Source: Petrotoga mobilis SJ95
Lineage (GTDB): Bacteria; Thermotogota; Thermotogae; Petrotogales; Petrotogaceae
Reading direction: 5' to 3'
Length of the DNA stretch: 64,000 bases
NCBI RefSeq assembly: GCF_000018605.1
Contig: NC_010003.1
Coordinates: forward strand, 1,526,501-1,590,500
A model generated the notes under the pieces. That model was not told the DNA's origin. It searched no databases and saw only the letters and a program-made list of their open reading frames with translations. Positions 9,119-62,460 of this stretch are shown piece after piece; positions within the stretch are counted from its first letter, which is position 1; each line of letters begins with the position of its first letter. The translations under genes were made by a program, and so were the position numbers.

Positions 9119-11413
9119 TTATACTAACGTAGTGGGGGGATTAACATAAATTTTGATGTCTCTAAAATGTTTTTTAAGCGTTGAGTATAAAAAGTCATGA
9201 TTTTTCTGTTTACTTTTTATAATGATTTGATACCTGTAATTCCCTCTTAATTTGGAAATGATTGGCACAACGGGTCCCAATATTTCAATATCAACTTGAT
9301 TTTCAATTTTACTCAACTCTTCGACGATTTCATTTGCTTTAGCCTTTGCTTTGTCAGCGGAAGGGTTGTTCACTAAAATCATAAATAATGTGACGAACGG
9401 AGGATATCCGTATATTTTCCTTTGTTCAAGATCATTCTCTGCAATTAGGTCAAAATTATGATCAATTAAAGATTTATAAATATGATTCTCTGGTTGAAAA
9501 CTCTGAATGATAACTTTGCCTTTCTCTTTCCTGCCAGATCTTCCTGCAACCTGCATCAGCAAAGAGGCTGTGCTTTCTTGAGCGTTGTAGTCAGGAAAGT
9601 TGAAATATCTGTCAGCGTCAAGAATGACTACTAAATCTAAATCTTGAATATCCAAACCTTTAGTGATCATCTTAGTTCCAACAACGATCTTTTTCCCTGG
9701 TTCTTTCATGAAATTAAAAGTGTTTCGTAAATCTTTGAATGTTTTTATAACCGTCCTATCAACCCTTACTAGAGGTTGTGAAGGGAACAATTTAGCCAAT
9801 TCAGCCATAACCCGTTCCGTACCGAAACCTCTTGTTTGAAGTTTAAAGCCTCCACACTTTGGACAAAAATTTGGTAATTCACTTTCCTTTCCACAGTAAT
9901 GGCATCTTAATTTTCTTTCATTTTTATGAAAGGTTAATGAAACATCACACTCATCACATTTGAATATATATCCGCAGTCGCTGCAAATTACATAATTGGC
10001 ATATCCTCTTGTTGGCGTGAAAACAATTACTTTTTTGTTTTTTTTCAAAGAAATTTCTATATTTTCTACTACCTTTTTGCTGAATATCCAGTTATATTTT
10101 TCATCTTTTTTCATATCAACTATTTGGACTTCAGGCATTTCGGTAAAGTACCTTGTATGTATTTTTTCAAGATAAAAAAAGTTCGCTTTTGCCTTGTACA
10201 GATCAATCACCCGTGGTGTTGCTGATGAAAGTATCAGTTGAATGTCTTCTAAATCTTTTCTAAAACAAGCCGTATCTATCGCATCGTAACTAACGTTTTC
10301 TATCTGATAGTAAGATTGATCATGTTCTTCATCGATTATAATCATTTTTAAATCTTTCATGGGTATGAAAATGGCGCTTCTTGTTCCTATGACTAAGTCC
10401 AATTCACCATTCACGGCTTTGTACCAAGTTTGTACTCTTTCGCTACTTGTAAGTCCGGAATGGTAAAACGCTGCATTGTAGTTAGCAAATCGTTTTTTTA
10501 ACCTGATCATTAGCTCCGAGGTTAAAGAGATTTCTGGCACTAAAAGAAGGACTTTCCCGCCATTTTCCAAGATAGGCCTTGCAACTTCAAAAAATACTTC
10601 TGTTTTACCGCTCCCCGTAACCCCATACAATAAATGTGGTTTATCAGAATTTGCTTTTATTGCTTCAACTGCTTGCCTCTGTTCATCATTTAAAGAAATT
10701 TCTGTATTTTCTTCGTAAATTGGGAAACCTTCAGATAATTCAATTATACCTTTTTTCCATAAAGTGTTCAAAACGGTGGAACCTTTTTTCAAAATACCTT
10801 GTGAGTACAGATCGCTTTCTAAGGTTTCACCGTTTATGGATAGATAATTTATTACCTCTCTGGCAGATTTTGACACATTGAACTTCCACATCTCTTTTAA
10901 GTCCATTTTTAGGCTAACAAACTTATCTATTTTCTTTGTAATTTCTTTTCTGTATAGTTCTATCTCAATTAAATTTGAATCTAAATATTCTCTTAACTGC
11001 TTGTTGGCTTTTGAAGCATTATCAAAAGATTTTAAAAATTGCTTGTAAAAAATAGGCTTTTGAATAGGAGAAAAAGAACTTTTTGGTGTAATTCTCAGTT
11101 TATAAATATCCGAAGAAAGAGGAGGAAAAAACAATCTTGCAACCTCCCCAATAGGAGCCATAAATTTTGAGCTTACCTTTTCCATAAGTTTGATGTGCTT
11201 TTCATTTAAAAAACTCTTATTATCCAATGGAAATGCGATTTCTTTTATTTTGTCGAATTCTGTAGTTTCAGACTCTTTGTAAACTAAACCAGGAAGGAAC
11301 TTACCTCTTAAATCAATGATAACTCTTTGACCTATCTCTAATTTTTTATCGCTTTTATAGGTAAACCCATTAAAAACCATTTGTCCTATGGGGATTACTT
11401 CATAATAATACAT
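9119..11413 (-). CDS. priA: primosomal replication restart helicase PriA
   Basis: DEAH-type superfamily 2 helicase that reloads the replisome at stalled forks. An N-terminal 3'-DNA-binding region (about 1-105) precedes the helicase core: Walker A GVTGSGKTE with Lys270, Walker B/DEAH-type DEEH at 361-364. Between the helicase lobes lies the PriA zinc insertion with paired CxxC motifs (CSDCGYIFKCDEC, CHYCG, CPKCG; about 475-515). The length (764 aa) is normal. The ATG follows GGAGGATTTAG. It begins 15 nt before the end of the second GH13 gene, so the two may be co-transcribed. Confidence 0.95.
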   Translation of the reverse strand: MYYYEVIPIGQMVFNGFTYKSDKKLEIGQRVIIDLRGKFLPGLVYKESETTEFDKIKEIAFPLDNKSFLNEKHIKLMEKVSSKFMAPIGEVARLFFPPLSSDIYKLRITPKSSFSPIQKPIFYKQFLKSFDNASKANKQLREYLDSNLIEIELYRKEITKKIDKFVSLKMDLKEMWKFNVSKSAREVINYLSINGETLESDLYSQGILKKGSTVLNTLWKKGIIELSEGFPIYEENTEISLNDEQRQAVEAIKANSDKPHLLYGVTGSGKTEVFFEVARPILENGGKVLLLVPEISLTSELMIRLKKRFANYNAAFYHSGLTSSERVQTWYKAVNGELDLVIGTRSAIFIPMKDLKMIIIDEEHDQSYYQIENVSYDAIDTACFRKDLEDIQLILSSATPRVIDLYKAKANFFYLEKIHTRYFTEMPEVQIVDMKKDEKYNWIFSKKVVENIEISLKKNKKVIVFTPTRGYANYVICSDCGYIFKCDECDVSLTFHKNERKLRCHYCGKESELPNFCPKCGGFKLQTRGFGTERVMAELAKLFPSQPLVRVDRTVIKTFKDLRNTFNFMKEPGKKIVVGTKMITKGLDIQDLDLVVILDADRYFNFPDYNAQESTASLLMQVAGRSGRKEKGKVIIQSFQPENHIYKSLIDHNFDLIAENDLEQRKIYGYPPFVTLFMILVNNPSADKAKAKANEIVEELSKIENQVDIEILGPVVPIISKLRGNYRYQIIIKSKQKNHDFLYSTLKKHFRDIKIYVNPPTTLV

Positions 11414-22448: not shown

Positions 22449-23651
22449 TTACAAAGCTGCTTTTATCTTTGATACGGCATCGTTAAGAGCATCTTCCGGT
22501 GTTTGTGTTCCGTTTATAATGTTGTTTAGAGCATCACTCATAGGTTGCCATACAGATTGCATTGCTGGTATATTAGGCATTGGTTCTCCACCTGATGCGC
22601 TTTCTGTGAATGCTGCAACCATTTCTGCTGGAACTGGACCACCTTGTTCGTCTACTATTTGGGCTACATCCAATCTTGAAGGACCTCTCGGATCAGCGAT
22701 ATAGAATTGATATATTCCTTCAGCTGTTGCTAAGTAATTGATCACAAATTCCATAGCAAACGCCTTGTTTTGTGATCTAGAATTGATCATCAATCCTTGT
22801 GAACCCACAAAAGGTCTCATTTGTTTACCTGGTTCAACTTCTATGCTTGTTAATGGCACTACTCCAAAGTCTATACCCGCATCTATATATCTTTTTACGG
22901 ACCATGGACCATTTATCATCATGGCAATTAACCCGTCTGTAAACATGGAATCCATAATAGTGTAACCCATACCTTGAGGCATTATACCTTCGTCGAAGAA
23001 ACTCTTCAAACGATATCCGGCTTTTATAGCTCCTTCATTGTTCAATCCTATATCAGATATATCGTAACCAGTCCTAGAATCATAATCAAAGACATAAGCA
23101 CCATATCCGCTAAAGAAACCATAAGTTTGATAAAAATCGTTAGGAACAACAGCGAATCCAACCGTTTCATCTGTTGTTAATTCTTTTGCCAAAGCCATTA
23201 ATTCGTTTATATTTGTTGGAACTTCATCATCACTCACATAATCCCTGTTGTATAATAATCCAACTGCTTCAATGGCGTAAGGCAATCCATAGAGCCTACC
23301 TTCATATGTGAATGCTTGAATTCCTGATGGAGCAAACTTGTTAAGTTCGATAGCAGATTGTGGAATAGGTTCAAGCAGGCCATTTAATGCTAATTCTCCA
23401 ACCCAATCATTAGCTCCTACTATTATATCAGGACCTTCCCCCGCCTGTGCTGAAGTTAGAAATTTTGACTTGATATCACCGAAATTAACCATTTGAACTT
23501 CGACGTTGATACCAGTATCTCTGGTAAACTGCTGGCCGATTCTTCTCATAAAGTCAACTTGCAATTCAGAAGACCACACGGTTAAAGTTTGTGAAAAAAG
23601 TGAAAGTGCTCCTACTAACATTACCAAAGTTAAAATTAAGCCTTTTTTCAT
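22449..23651 (-). CDS. malE: maltose/maltodextrin-binding protein
   Basis: Periplasmic solute-binding protein (400 aa). The signal peptide covers about residues 1-19. The mature protein shows the family-1 binding-protein pattern: VWSSELQVDFMRRIGQQFTRDTG, GEGPDIIVGANDWVGELALNG, and a C-terminal PMPNIPAMQSVWQPMSDALNNIINGTQTP-type tail with conserved tryptophan. It captures maltose and maltodextrins released by the secreted GH13 enzymes. It is the first gene of malEFG, with a strong promoter, a LacI-type operator and a phased TAAYY array upstream. Confidence 0.93.
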   Translation of the reverse strand: MKKGLILTLVMLVGALSLFSQTLTVWSSELQVDFMRRIGQQFTRDTGINVEVQMVNFGDIKSKFLTSAQAGEGPDIIVGANDWVGELALNGLLEPIPQSAIELNKFAPSGIQAFTYEGRLYGLPYAIEAVGLLYNRDYVSDDEVPTNINELMALAKELTTDETVGFAVVPNDFYQTYGFFSGYGAYVFDYDSRTGYDISDIGLNNEGAIKAGYRLKSFFDEGIMPQGMGYTIMDSMFTDGLIAMMINGPWSVKRYIDAGIDFGVVPLTSIEVEPGKQMRPFVGSQGLMINSRSQNKAFAMEFVINYLATAEGIYQFYIADPRGPSRLDVAQIVDEQGGPVPAEMVAAFTESASGGEPMPNIPAMQSVWQPMSDALNNIINGTQTPEDALNDAVSKIKAAL

Positions 23652-23682: not shown

Positions 23683-23699
23683 ATGGAAACGTTTTTACT
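23683..23699 (-). promoter_or_regulatory. LacI-family operator in the malE leader
   Basis: The palindromic core AAACGTTT (23687-23694) lies within ATGGAAACGTTTTTACT. This context is nearly identical to the amylase operator at 8325-8340 and sits about 12 nt past the -10 box. It supports joint repression of malEFG and the amylase by one LacI-family regulator, not encoded here. Confidence 0.75.
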
Positions 23700-23705
23700 A
23701 AACTA

Positions 23706-23733
23706 ATTATAACAAAAAAGGATACAATTTCAA
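23706..23733 (-). promoter_or_regulatory. malE promoter
   Basis: The -35 box is TTGAAA (23728-23733), the spacer is 16 nt, and the -10 box is TATAAT (23706-23711) on the minus strand, directly upstream of the LacI-type operator. Confidence 0.8.
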
Positions 23734-23738
23734 ATCGG

Positions 23739-23793
23739 GATTATTGGCGATTAAATCCGGTTAAAGGTGATTATCAAGAATTATTTCCGATTA
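23739..23793 (-). promoter_or_regulatory. phased TAAYY array upstream of malE
   Basis: On the minus strand TAA occurs at six successive 10-nt steps (plus-strand TTA at 23741, 23751, 23761, 23771, 23781, 23791). The pentamers, far to near, are TAATC, TAATT, TAATC, TAACC, TAATC, TAATC. The nearest TAA ends exactly 30 nt before the first base of the -10 box. It may be a helically phased site for an activator or for the polymerase alpha subunit. A matching array precedes the aminotransferase operon. Confidence 0.65.
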
Positions 23794-23833
23794 AGAGCAA
23801 AAATCTCAGTTTTTCGATATTTTTCTCAAAAAT

Positions 23834-25231
23834 TTAAACAGGATAAATTGCTGTATCTTCATTCTGAAAGCTTTCTGCCAGGTTTAGGTCAATGTTAAGT
23901 GAACGAACGTAATTATTTTTCAAGAATTTTTTACCAACTTCTTTGAATAAAACGTAGGTCAATAAATCTTCATCATTCTGAGCCAATATGCCTATTTCCT
24001 TTTTCGCTTTTTCTAGCTCAGGTTCTAAATCATCTGCTGGTCTATAGTCTATGGGTTTCTCATTGACTAATGCTAATTTGTATAATTCTTCGTCTACTGG
24101 GGCAGGTGGTTTTCCATAGAGGCCTTTCAAGTAATTTTTTACTTCGTTAGTTATCATTGAATATCTTTTACCAGTTAATACGTTTAAAACAGCTTGAACT
24201 CCTACGATCTGACTAGTGGGGGTTACCAAAGGGGGATATCCTAAATCTTTTCGAACCTTAGGTACTTCTTGTAGAACATCGCTTAATTTATCTTCAGCCT
24301 TTTGTGACTTTAGTTGAGAAACTAAATTAGAAAGCATACCTCCAGGGATTTGAGCATTTAATATTCTGGCATCTATTGATTCCATCTTGACATCGTACTC
24401 ACTGTATTTCGACCTTACCTTCCAAAAATATTCAACCAATTTCATTATTGTTTTTGTATCTAGATCTAAGTCGTAGGTGTAGACAAAAGGTTCGACCGCT
24501 GGTTCTGAGGTACCGTTAGCAAAAGGGCTCAACGCTAAATCCAGAATGTCTGCTCCAGCTTCTACTCCAGCGAAATAAGCCATAGAAGCAAGACCAGTGG
24601 TTGCGTGAGAATGAATATCAACAAGGATGTTGAATTTCTTCTTGATTTCTTTTACCAAATCATAGGCATCTTTTGGTTTTAACAATCCCGCCATATCTTT
24701 TATAACAATTGAATCGACGCCTCTTTCCACTAATTCTTTTGTATAATTTAAATAGTACTGCAGATTGTGAACGGGACTAACGGTATAACATATAGCTCCT
24801 TGAACATGAATATTTCTTTTTTTTGCAACCTCTATAGACTTTTCCAAGTTACGAATATCGTTTAAAGCATCGAAAACCCTTATGATATCCATGCTGTAGT
24901 CAGCTACTTTGTTAACGAATAATTCTACCACGTCATCGGCATAATTTCTGTATCCAACTAAATTTTGCCCTCTTAGAAGCATTTGGATTTTGGTATTTTT
25001 TAATTTCGCTCTTATGGTTTTTAGCCTTTGCCATGGATCTTCGTTGAGGTATCTTATGCATGAATCGTAAGTAGCCCCACCCCATACTTCCATAGAATAA
25101 TAGCCAACTTGATCGAAGTCTGTCAATTGACCTTCAAAATCATCCATTTTTAATCTCGTTGCTATTAAAGATTGTTGCCCGTCTCTTAAAGTTGTATCAA
25201 CTATATATGGTTTTTTATTCATCTTATTCAA
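23834..25231 (-). CDS. carboxyltransferase subunit (oxaloacetate decarboxylase alpha / pyruvate carboxylase B type)
   Basis: Biotin-dependent carboxyltransferase of the HMGL-like TIM-barrel family. The metal/catalytic motif DTTLRDGQQS (about 12-21), the lysine-bearing SIVIKDMAGLLKP and the metal histidines in DIHSHATTG are all present. The 465 residues end after the PYC_OADA barrel extension, so no biotin-carrier domain with a lysine AMKM motif is fused. That part must be a separate protein. It would carboxylate pyruvate or decarboxylate oxaloacetate with a partner. The start overlaps the QueT-type gene by 4 nt; ATG 25231 or 25222 are both possible. Confidence 0.88.
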   Translation of the reverse strand: MNKMNKKPYIVDTTLRDGQQSLIATRLKMDDFEGQLTDFDQVGYYSMEVWGGATYDSCIRYLNEDPWQRLKTIRAKLKNTKIQMLLRGQNLVGYRNYADDVVELFVNKVADYSMDIIRVFDALNDIRNLEKSIEVAKKRNIHVQGAICYTVSPVHNLQYYLNYTKELVERGVDSIVIKDMAGLLKPKDAYDLVKEIKKKFNILVDIHSHATTGLASMAYFAGVEAGADILDLALSPFANGTSEPAVEPFVYTYDLDLDTKTIMKLVEYFWKVRSKYSEYDVKMESIDARILNAQIPGGMLSNLVSQLKSQKAEDKLSDVLQEVPKVRKDLGYPPLVTPTSQIVGVQAVLNVLTGKRYSMITNEVKNYLKGLYGKPPAPVDEELYKLALVNEKPIDYRPADDLEPELEKAKKEIGILAQNDEDLLTYVLFKEVGKKFLKNNYVRSLNIDLNLAESFQNEDTAIYPV

Positions 25232-53952: not shown

Positions 53953-54356
53953 GGCGAAGCCCTCCCCCCCAGAGTCTAAGGGACCGCAGGTCCCTTCCAT
54001 AGAAGGGTAGGGAGCGGGGCGAAGAGGTTAAAATAAAGAATAAGCGCACTTTACATAAAAAATTTAAAAATCATTTTCAAAAATTAAGAATTTGATTTTA
54101 AAAGGGTCACAGGGCGAAGCCCTCCTTCCACCAGAGTCTAAGGGACCACAGGTCCCTTCCATAGAAGGGTGGGGAGCGGGGCGAAGAGGTTAAAATAAAG
54201 AATAAGCGCACTTTACATAAAAAATTTAAAAATCATTTTCAAAAATTAAGAATTTGATTTTAAAAGGGTCACAGGGCGAAGCCCTCCCCCCCCAGAGTCT
54301 GAGAGGGACCGCAGGTCCCTTCCATAGAAGGGTGGGGAGCGGGGAATGGGCGCTAT
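53953..54356 (+). repeat. tandem copies of the GC-rich dispersed repeat (copy B)
   Basis: The 457-nt gap before the AHCY gene holds about 2.4 tandem copies of a 160-162-nt unit (starts at 53953, 54113 and 54275). Each unit begins GGCGAAGCCCTCC and contains the hairpins AAGGGACC-GCA-GGTCCCTT and CCCTTC-CATA-GAAGGG, then GGTGGGGAGCGGGG. Units one and two continue into an AT-rich arm (GAAGAGGTTAAAATAAAGAA and onward) ending in AAAAGGGTCACAGG. The last unit instead ends GGGCGCTATA. The units are nearly identical outside a variable C-run. No gene is present. Confidence 0.9.
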
Positions 54357-57060: not shown

Positions 57061-57090
57061 ATGAAATATATTTCATGAAATTTTTTTCAT
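57061..57090. promoter_or_regulatory. overlapping ATGAAA/TTTCAT dyads, possible operator
   Basis: ATGAAATATATTTCAT (57061-57076) is a perfect 16-nt palindrome. It overlaps a second palindrome TTTCATGAAA (57071-57080), and another TTTCAT lies at 57085-57090. The clustered half-sites look like an operator upstream of the aminotransferase promoter, but the regulator is unknown and AT-rich chance palindromes are possible. Confidence 0.4.
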
Positions 57091-57098
57091 ATGCCCAA

Positions 57099-57143
57099 TA
57101 AATGCTTCTAATCGTCAATAAACGTCTGTAATCGTCTGTAACT
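57099..57143 (+). promoter_or_regulatory. phased TAAYY array upstream of the aminotransferase operon
   Basis: TAA recurs at exact 10-nt steps (57099, 57109, 57119, 57129, 57139). The pentamers are TAAAT, TAATC, TAAAC, TAATC and TAACT. The last TAA ends 30 nt before the first base of the -10 box, as in the malE array, and both arrays have the same orientation relative to their gene. An additional degenerate unit (TGACT, 57149) overlaps the -35 box. Confidence 0.6.
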
Positions 57144-57147
57144 GACT

Positions 57148-57176
57148 TTGACTTATCTCGATTATTTGATTATAAT
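57148..57176 (+). promoter_or_regulatory. promoter of the aminotransferase-butyrate kinase operon
   Basis: The -35 box is TTGACT (57148-57153), the spacer is 17 nt, and the -10 box is a perfect TATAAT (57171-57176), 38 nt before the ATG. Confidence 0.85.
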
Positions 57177-57213: not shown

Positions 57214-58455
57214 ATGAACTACGAAAAAAAGTTTTCAAAAGTTGCAAAAACGGCGAAAGCAAGCATTATAAGGGAATTATTGAAGGTAGCTTCTGAGCCT
57301 GAAACGATATCGTTTGGTGGGGGTGTACCTGATCCAGAGACTTTTCCTCGAGAAGAATTAGGAGAAATTGCGGCAAAAATTGTTAAAGAAGAATACAAAA
57401 TAACACTACAGTATGGTCCTACCGAGGGAGATAACGAATTAAAAAACGCTTATATAAATCTACTAAAAAAACACGAAGGAATAGAAGGGGTATCTCCGGA
57501 GAATATGTTGATAACTGTTGGTTCCCAGCAAGCCCTACAATTGATAGGTCTAGCACTGCTCGATGAAGATTCTTACTGTGCTGTAGGAAAACCAGTTTAT
57601 TTGGGTGCAGTCAGCGCTTTTAGACAAATGTTTCCTAAATTTATGGAAATACCTTTAGAAGATGATGGAATGAATGTTGATATCCTTGAAGAAAAATTAG
57701 AAGAGTTAGTAACTAAGGGAGAAATAGATAAGTTTAAATTCGTTTACGTGGTGCCTACATTTCAAAATCCTGCTGGGGTAACTATGTCGTTAGAAAAAAG
57801 AAAGAAATTAATTAACTTAGCACATAAATATGATTTTTTAATTCTCGAGGATGATCCTTATGGTTCGTTGAGATTTGAGGGAGAACCAATTCCGTCAATT
57901 TACTCTCTTGATCCAGAAAGAACGGTCTTATTAAACACATTTTCTAAAATTTTGTGTCCAGGTCTGAGAATTGGGATAATTGTTGCATCAAAAGACTTAT
58001 TAAGAAAGCTAACAATACTTAAACAAGGTGTAGATCTATGTACACCATCTTTGACCCAGAGACTAGCCGCTAGATACCTCCAAGCTCACGATAGGATCGA
58101 ACAGTTAAAACCCACATTAGAACTTTATAAATCAAAAAAAGATACGATGTTGAAGGCGTTAGAAGAGGAATTCGGTGATATGCAAGGGGTAAGTTGGACT
58201 CGCCCGGAGGGTGGGCTCTTCATATGGTTAACTTTTCCAGAATGGGTAGATACTATGGAAATGTTTGAAGAAGCAAAGAAGAACAAAGTATTGTACGTTC
58301 CGGGAGAGGCATTTTATGTAAACGAGGTGGAAAAAAATCACATGCGATTATCTTTCTGCCTTCCTTCACACGAAGAAATAAAAGAGGGTATAAGAAGATT
58401 GAGAAAAGTTGCAGAAAATTATGTAAATGCGAATTCTATCCGTAGCAAATCCTAA
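57214..58455 (+). CDS. PLP-dependent aminotransferase (class I/II)
   Basis: A fold-type I aminotransferase of 413 residues in the group of 2-aminoadipate/MocR-like and aromatic/branched-chain aminotransferases: EPETISFGGGVPDPETFP, LQYGPTEGDNELKNAY, VPTFQNPAGVTMSLEKRKKL, the acidic LEDDPYGSLRF, and the PLP lysine in NTFSKILCPGLRIG. It probably removes the amino group from an amino acid to give a 2-oxoacid. It heads an operon whose other enzymes convert acyl-CoA to acid and ATP, so a fermentative role fits. AAGGGGGG precedes the ATG. Confidence 0.9.
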   Translation: MNYEKKFSKVAKTAKASIIRELLKVASEPETISFGGGVPDPETFPREELGEIAAKIVKEEYKITLQYGPTEGDNELKNAYINLLKKHEGIEGVSPENMLITVGSQQALQLIGLALLDEDSYCAVGKPVYLGAVSAFRQMFPKFMEIPLEDDGMNVDILEEKLEELVTKGEIDKFKFVYVVPTFQNPAGVTMSLEKRKKLINLAHKYDFLILEDDPYGSLRFEGEPIPSIYSLDPERTVLLNTFSKILCPGLRIGIIVASKDLLRKLTILKQGVDLCTPSLTQRLAARYLQAHDRIEQLKPTLELYKSKKDTMLKALEEEFGDMQGVSWTRPEGGLFIWLTFPEWVDTMEMFEEAKKNKVLYVPGEAFYVNEVEKNHMRLSFCLPSHEEIKEGIRRLRKVAENYVNANSIRSKS

Positions 58456-62253: not shown

Positions 62254-62460
62254 TCTGTGCAAAATAGTTTGTTTGCAATGCTTTAGAAATGTCTCCCAAA
62301 ATCTCGTTTGCTACGCTTTTGCAGCTCTGTGCAAAAAGTTTTTTTGGGATAAATTTAAATTTGGGGGTTCTTAAGGGGGTATCCCCTTTTGCAGCTCTGT
62401 GCAAAAAGTTTTTTTGGGATAAATTTAAATTTGGGGGTTCTTAAGGGGGTACCCCCCTTA
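62245..62460. repeat. composite dispersed repeat, copy E with 70-nt tandem duplication
   Basis: On the minus strand 62245-62320 matches the module of copies C and D (TTTTGC...GCAAAA hairpin and the GCATTGCAAAC / GAGATTTTGGGA strings). It is followed by two near-identical 70-nt units (62317-62386 and 62387-62456), each starting TTTTGCAGCTCTGTGCAAAA and ending in a hairpin, TTAAGGGGGTA(T/C)CCCC. These hairpins could act as terminators before the oxidoreductase genes. Confidence 0.85.

Follow-up and report, generated by a model that had tools for sequence, protein, structure and literature searches.

At Escherichia coli ompF and ompC, six OmpR subunits bind head-to-tail to 10-bp half-sites that extend from about -100 to -39, upstream of a sigma-70 promoter. 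UP elements – as far as they are known – are A-tract-like. ArcA, which exerts global control over carbon genes, recognises sites in which 10-bp direct-repeat elements, two to five in number, follow one another at about one turn, 11 bp centre to centre, in a flexible architecture (PMC3798270); the same paper cites multiple OmpR boxes that differ in affinity. BldC of Streptomyces multimerises asymmetrically, head-to-tail, along AT-rich direct repeats (AATTXXXX(C)) that vary in number and are spaced by one turn, and bends the DNA (PMC5859096). In Thermotoga maritima, AT content is raised about 75 bp upstream of the -10 hexamer, which the authors read as UP elements (PMC3636130).

The window analysed here – 64,000 nucleotides of the Petrotoga mobilis SJ95 genome – contains, at the promoter of a malE-like gene, an array of TAAYY pentamers that can be set beside each of these systems; no description of such a Petrotoga element was found in the literature searched. 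Like OmpR and ArcA sites, the array lies upstream of a promoter and repeats in the same direction at every helical turn, and it covers nearly the same stretch as the OmpR sites at ompF; however, its unit is not the OmpR motif, about 43 promoters are served and an A-tract cap is present. Unlike ArcA sites, arrays here always step by 10 nt and hold a fixed register to the -10 hexamer. The comparison with BldC is mixed, as AATY stands at phases 1-4 of the array unit but C is not conserved at phase 9. Like UP elements, the array places AT-rich minor-groove sites upstream of -35 on the face turned to polymerase, those at about -41 and -52 being in phase with the promoter, yet it is two to three times longer, its TAAT core and polarity are strict, and rRNA promoters go without it. 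Phased A-tract promoters likewise carry A-tracts in helical phase upstream, whereas the main units here are TAATY, interrupted by TpA. Finally, arrays end 32, 42 or 52 nt from the -10 hexamer, in which they are like class I activator sites.

The malE array and its surroundings

Read directly from the minus strand (23793-23739), the array comprises TAATC, TAATT, TAATC, TAACC, TAATC and TAATC, starting at 23793, 23783, 23773, 23763, 23753 and 23743, so the six pentamers at an exact 10-nt step, first noticed in a sequence-only reading, are confirmed. The distances given there need correction: between the array and the -35 hexamer there are 5 nt, not 7, and what had been put at 30 nt before the -10 hexamer is 27 nt counted from the end of the array, or 32 nt if both the last unit and the hexamer are measured from their first base. 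Directly downstream lies the core promoter, TTGAAA-N16-TATAAT (Table 1). All this fits into the 182 bp that separate a carboxylase-subunit-like gene (23834-25231) from the malE-like gene (22449-23651), which scores 272.8 bits against NF007011, slightly below the 291-bit cut-off. The array had been held distinct from a LacI-type operator, and it is: the operator lies on the far side of the -10 hexamer.

The pentamers had also been taken for the whole array, which overlooked A-tract units further upstream in the same 10-nt phase. The cap has a counterpart in other promoters of this genome, AAAAnTnAGA followed by WTTTW, and is included in the match at malE (23706-23813) of R1, a sequence model of the whole element; the two 10-mers above it are homologous to units at groES, AAAAACGAGA.

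Table 1. Array promoters of the window and associated features (promoter numbering sets the -10 hexamer as -12 to -7)
Feature	Position	Strand	Basis or remark
Six TAAYY units, 10-nt steps	23739-23793	-	-94 to -40
Upstream cap in phase with malE units, AAAACTGAGA TTTTTGCTCT	23794-23813	-	own-genome promoters and malE orthologues
Two more in-phase A/T-tract 10-mers, ATTTTTGAGA AAAATATCGA	23814-23833	-	promoter alignment; weaker evidence
-35 hexamer TTGAAA	23728-23733	-	TTG likewise placed in most aligned promoters
-10 hexamer TATAAT	23706-23711	-	32 nt past last-unit start
LacI-type operator AAAACGTTTCCAT	23683-23695	-	downstream of -10; conserved in malE leaders of both genera
malE-like sugar-binding protein gene, behind the array promoter	22449-23651	-	NF007011 MalE
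Second array, TAAATGCTTC TAATCGTCAA TAAACGTCTG TAATCGTCTG TAACT	57099-57143	+	R1 match
Second-array promoter, TTGACT (57148-57153) and TATAAT (57171-57176)	57148-57176	+	register 32
PLP-dependent aminotransferase gene behind second array	57214-58455	+	

At the second array, the R1 match (57071-57176) scores 52.7 bits, the promoter itself belonging to the R1 training set; R1 also matches 9411-9506, and this match, within a PriA-like gene, was taken as chance. The window also contains tandem repeats at 53953-54344 (period 162, 2.4 copies, GC-rich unit) and at 62316-62456 (period 70, 2 copies).

By chance, three in a row at 10 nt would be expected 0.03 times per window; from the frequency of TAAYY in the window, six in a row would be expected 1e-8 times. 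At periods of 6-15 other than 10, no TAAYY run exceeds three anywhere in the 64 kb, and 20,000 shuffles of the malE intergenic region, searched at periods 8-13, produced a single run of four and none longer.

Anatomy, register and conservation

An alignment of 27 promoters on the -10 hexamer displays the element in full: A-tract ten-mers (AAAAnTnAGA) at about -124, -114 and -104 are the 5'-most parts, followed by A/T units, TAATYGNYTN units down to -44, TTG at -35 to -33 and TATAAT. Where there are six units, as at malE, TAAT reaches up to -94, and in a wider promoter set the first turn upstream of TAAT is AAAA-, ATTT- or AATT-like. The bases between the pentamers, described earlier as unrelated, do drift, but across promoters the unit favours TAATYGNYTN. 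A-tracts, defined as at least four A/T without TpA, recur at the helical period in many promoters at -94 and beyond; between -74 and -44 most units contain TpA and do not qualify. The first four bases of the units from -74 to -54 are TAAT, TAAA or TATT with almost no exception, and Y comes next. The promoter-proximal turn is less conserved than the middle turns, part of which may reflect bias from promoter selection, and at groES of several genera the promoter-nearest turn lacks TAAT.

The units have a direction: 116 of 149 all-A/T units start with TA and 4 end with it, and the reversed unit, ATTA, does not occur among the 149. They also keep a register to the promoter. An unbiased search of six genomes of the genus, for three TAAY at 10 nt followed by a gap of 18-48 nt and TATAAT, returned 77 promoters – not independent of one another, as related promoters are counted in several genomes – 58 of which have the -10 hexamer at 2 modulo 10 (32, 42 or 52 nt) from the last unit. 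Taken genome by genome, the excess is significant in six of six (p from 5e-5 to 2e-11), and the P. mobilis genome alone gives 9 of 12 promoters (p=2e-7).

Across 100 orthologous promoter pairs, identity is 84-90% at unit phases 0-3 and 54-73% at phases 4-9, while in 29 distant pairs the TAAT of phases 0-3 is 87-97% identical against 33-61% at phases 4-9; the pairwise register was picked by TAAT matching, which favours phases 0-3, and a few non-array pairs are mis-anchored. A MAFFT alignment of malE leaders, which involves no such rule, gives a similar picture for G018, a genome of another genus, where nearly all TAAT steps are retained among rewritten spacers and the LacI-type operator AAAACGTTTCCAT is kept as well. 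As judged from these alignments, TAAT is under selection. The array is likewise conserved in the orthologous malE promoters of G030, G032, G033 and G034, and the conservation in relatives on which the sequence-only reading had staked its proposal is thus seen both within the genus and in another genus.

Distribution and target genes

The site is not peculiar to malE. In the genome, of 2.17 Mb, four TAAYY at 10 nt gave 17 hits where a reversed control gave 2; allowing as many as two mismatches in a TAATY form raised the figures to 92 and 32. Exact four-unit TAATY arrays number 12-21 per genome in six of six genomes of the genus and in one of the sister genus (control 0-2). R1 has 43 matches in the P. 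mobilis genome at E<0.03, 12 of which were used to build it. Most of the 45 array places inspected are intergenic and oriented toward the next gene, and the shuffles never passed four units: arrays are rare inside genes and in shuffled sequence. The earlier placement at the malE promoter stands, but the array is not specific to malE: about 43 unrelated promoters bear it, which rules out a malE-specific or maltose-regulator site, and the element extends through the genome and the family, which the sequence-only reading had missed.

When 103 Thermotogota genomes were scanned strictly for TAATY, arrays proved abundant only in two genera, a count too low for relatives with TATTY units, as groES revealed. 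Restriction to two genera was overturned by the groES promoters, which carry the element family-wide: in eight genera of the family, TA[A/T]TY series at 10 nt lie upstream of the -10 hexamer; the best register, in 13 genomes anchored on that hexamer, is 42 in 12 and 43 in one; and R1, with groES absent from its training, matches the element in 16 of 16 family loci, 14 of them at E<0.03. On two rRNA loci R1 found no element, and direct inspection of both rRNA promoters likewise revealed no array. Because groES carries it across the family, the element is old there and partly degenerate beyond the two genera. An exact-pattern scan of 85,000 genomes has unrelated AT-rich organisms among the matches listed.

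The genes behind the arrays – some named from their sequences and not by profile scan, and those of fetched loci being simple open reading frames – mostly serve catabolism, transport or nitrogen use. They include sugar- and peptide-binding proteins of ABC transporters, regulators of the LacI, GntR and ROK types, GH42, a GH13-like alpha-amylase, a GH4-like enzyme, fructose-bisphosphatase, glutamine synthetase (glnA), glutamate dehydrogenase, aminomethyltransferase (gcvT), an aromatic amino acid lyase and prephenate dehydratase, together with an H+-pyrophosphatase, a ferredoxin, groES and one small RNA. This set reads more like a global nutritional regulon than like the clientele of a generic strength element; groES and the H+-pyrophosphatase fit a catabolite regulon less well, and the targets have no single obvious signal in common.

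Several of these promoters also carry sites for local repressors. At the groES loci (L402-L416) the array is accompanied by a CIRCE-like HrcA operator (TTAGCACTC...), which lies beyond the -10 hexamer on its downstream side; a general array is therefore combined with a specific repressor, much as at malE with its LacI-type site. At the alpha-amylase promoter (L392, minus strand near G000:C1:1221568), LacI-type sites, GGAAATGTTTCCATT and GGAATCATTTCC, flank the -10 hexamer behind the array.

Two other loci deserve description. At L177:2800-3064, minus strand (G000:C1, about 191.9-192.2 kb), an array promoter has no open reading frame behind it and drives instead a putative small RNA some 100 nt long, whose sequence from TACAGAGCAC through the terminator AGGGCCTTATTAAGGCCCTTTTTTT is the same in five species. 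The RNA contains a C-rich segment, CCCTCCCTCCTGG, complementary to ribosome-binding sites, and against Rfam it gave only a sub-threshold match to ar15 (25.1 bits; threshold 40). At L202:989-2917, minus strand, the gene behind the array encodes a 642-aa membrane protein with no Pfam or NCBIfam match; two relatives have arrays like the one at this gene twice within about 5 kb.

Possible readers of the array

We read the malE array as one copy of a family-wide global activator site, bound head-to-tail by a winged-helix or BldC-like protein, and put the probability of this at about 0.5. The sequence-only reading had left a multimeric activator and docking of the polymerase alpha C-terminal domain (alpha-CTD) side by side; its helically phased site upstream of the malE promoter is well supported, the activator is now preferred, and alpha-CTD docking is kept as the weaker option. 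One asymmetric subunit, most plausibly with a winged helix-turn-helix of the OmpR/ArcA kind or BldC-like, would occupy each 10-bp unit (TAATY and some five bases of looser preference), and four to six subunits would assemble head-to-tail along a single face of the helix, from about -94 to -40, with the phased A-tracts above helping to bend the DNA or to cap the filament. Because the filament stops an integral number of turns before the -10 hexamer, its final subunit may contact RNA polymerase and so increase initiation, or an alpha-CTD that occupies the turn left over may do so, while the time of firing would be set by local repressors, of the LacI type at malE and HrcA/CIRCE at groES. Head-to-tail binding of an asymmetric subunit that touches polymerase from one face is consistent with the polarity and the 10-nt step, with a unit number that varies between arrays and with the whole-turn distance to the core promoter.

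As to the protein itself, at least four matches to OmpR-type regulators (4-8) are present in each genome of the family, which makes one of these regulators a candidate reader, and no more than that. A BldC homologue is not supported, since a search for small BldC-like MerR/HTH_17 proteins gave no consistent candidate across the genomes of the genus that carry arrays. Nor did the copy numbers of OmpR-type, HU and HTH_17 proteins across genomes show anything distinctive that would point to the reader: differences in OmpR-type or HU numbers gave no such pointer, and the argument itself lapsed with the family-wide presence of the element at groES.

The strongest rival, though we consider it unlikely, is an extended UP element, in which the units would dock alpha-CTDs and the two alpha-CTDs of a polymerase would use any two of the phased minor-groove sites, so that polymerase is recruited more strongly with no need for an extra protein. 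Units centred near -42, -52 and -62, with further turns beyond, are in phase with the core promoter; arrays pair with differing local repressors, a behaviour expected of a general strength element; a canonical alpha-CTD, with RxxNCLK and NFG(R/K)KS, is present; and the AT rise of T. maritima has been read in the same terms (PMC3636130). However, six to nine turns are occupied where a polymerase has two alpha-CTDs, the polarity is strict, as is the T-A start in place of an expected A-tract, the promoter-nearest turn is weaker than the middle ones and lacks TAAT at groES in several genera, and rRNA promoters, the classic users of UP elements, have no array. A lineage-specific change in the alpha-CTD was looked for and none was seen; a genus without strict arrays has the same contact residues.

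Less probable still is a DNA-shape element, in which phased A-tracts and TpA steps would ease the curving or wrapping of the upstream 100 bp on polymerase or on a nucleoid protein such as HU, with no sequence-specific reader. The phased A-tracts above the TAAT units, the AAAAACGAGA units at groES, the preference for A/T at phases 0-3, with G/C commoner at 5-8 – the pattern of bendable DNA – and the presence of HU, in one copy, are in its favour, and the A-tract units suggest a contribution of DNA shape that we have counted against the activator reading. Yet curvature alone would tolerate AAAA or TTTT, whereas the units from -74 to -54 are almost exclusively TAAT, TAAA or TATT and then Y, and orthologues have retained TAAT through the turnover of their spacers. 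Chance periodicity, for all that the intergenic DNA here is AT-rich (28% G+C), is refuted by the shuffles, which never exceed four units, by the reversed controls (only 0-2 per genome), by the register to the -10 hexamer and by conservation focused on TAAT.

Returning to the global activator site, a fuller version of it can be put forward tentatively, with distinctly less confidence than the reading itself: a hitherto undescribed dedicated protein may polymerise head-to-tail over up to nine turns at 10.0 bp per turn and act as a general activator of inducible operons, in combination with local repressors and with a conserved small RNA of its own, defining a family-wide class of promoters. An architecture of about 100 bp with strict 10-bp phase, present at about 40 promoters per genome and at groES family-wide, implies a global control system of the Petrotogaceae. 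The array also lends itself to a clean natural test of the number of phased subunits that polymerase can exploit, it is a bait with which the reader protein might be isolated, and it predicts targets and promoters that would be useful to the genetics of thermophiles.
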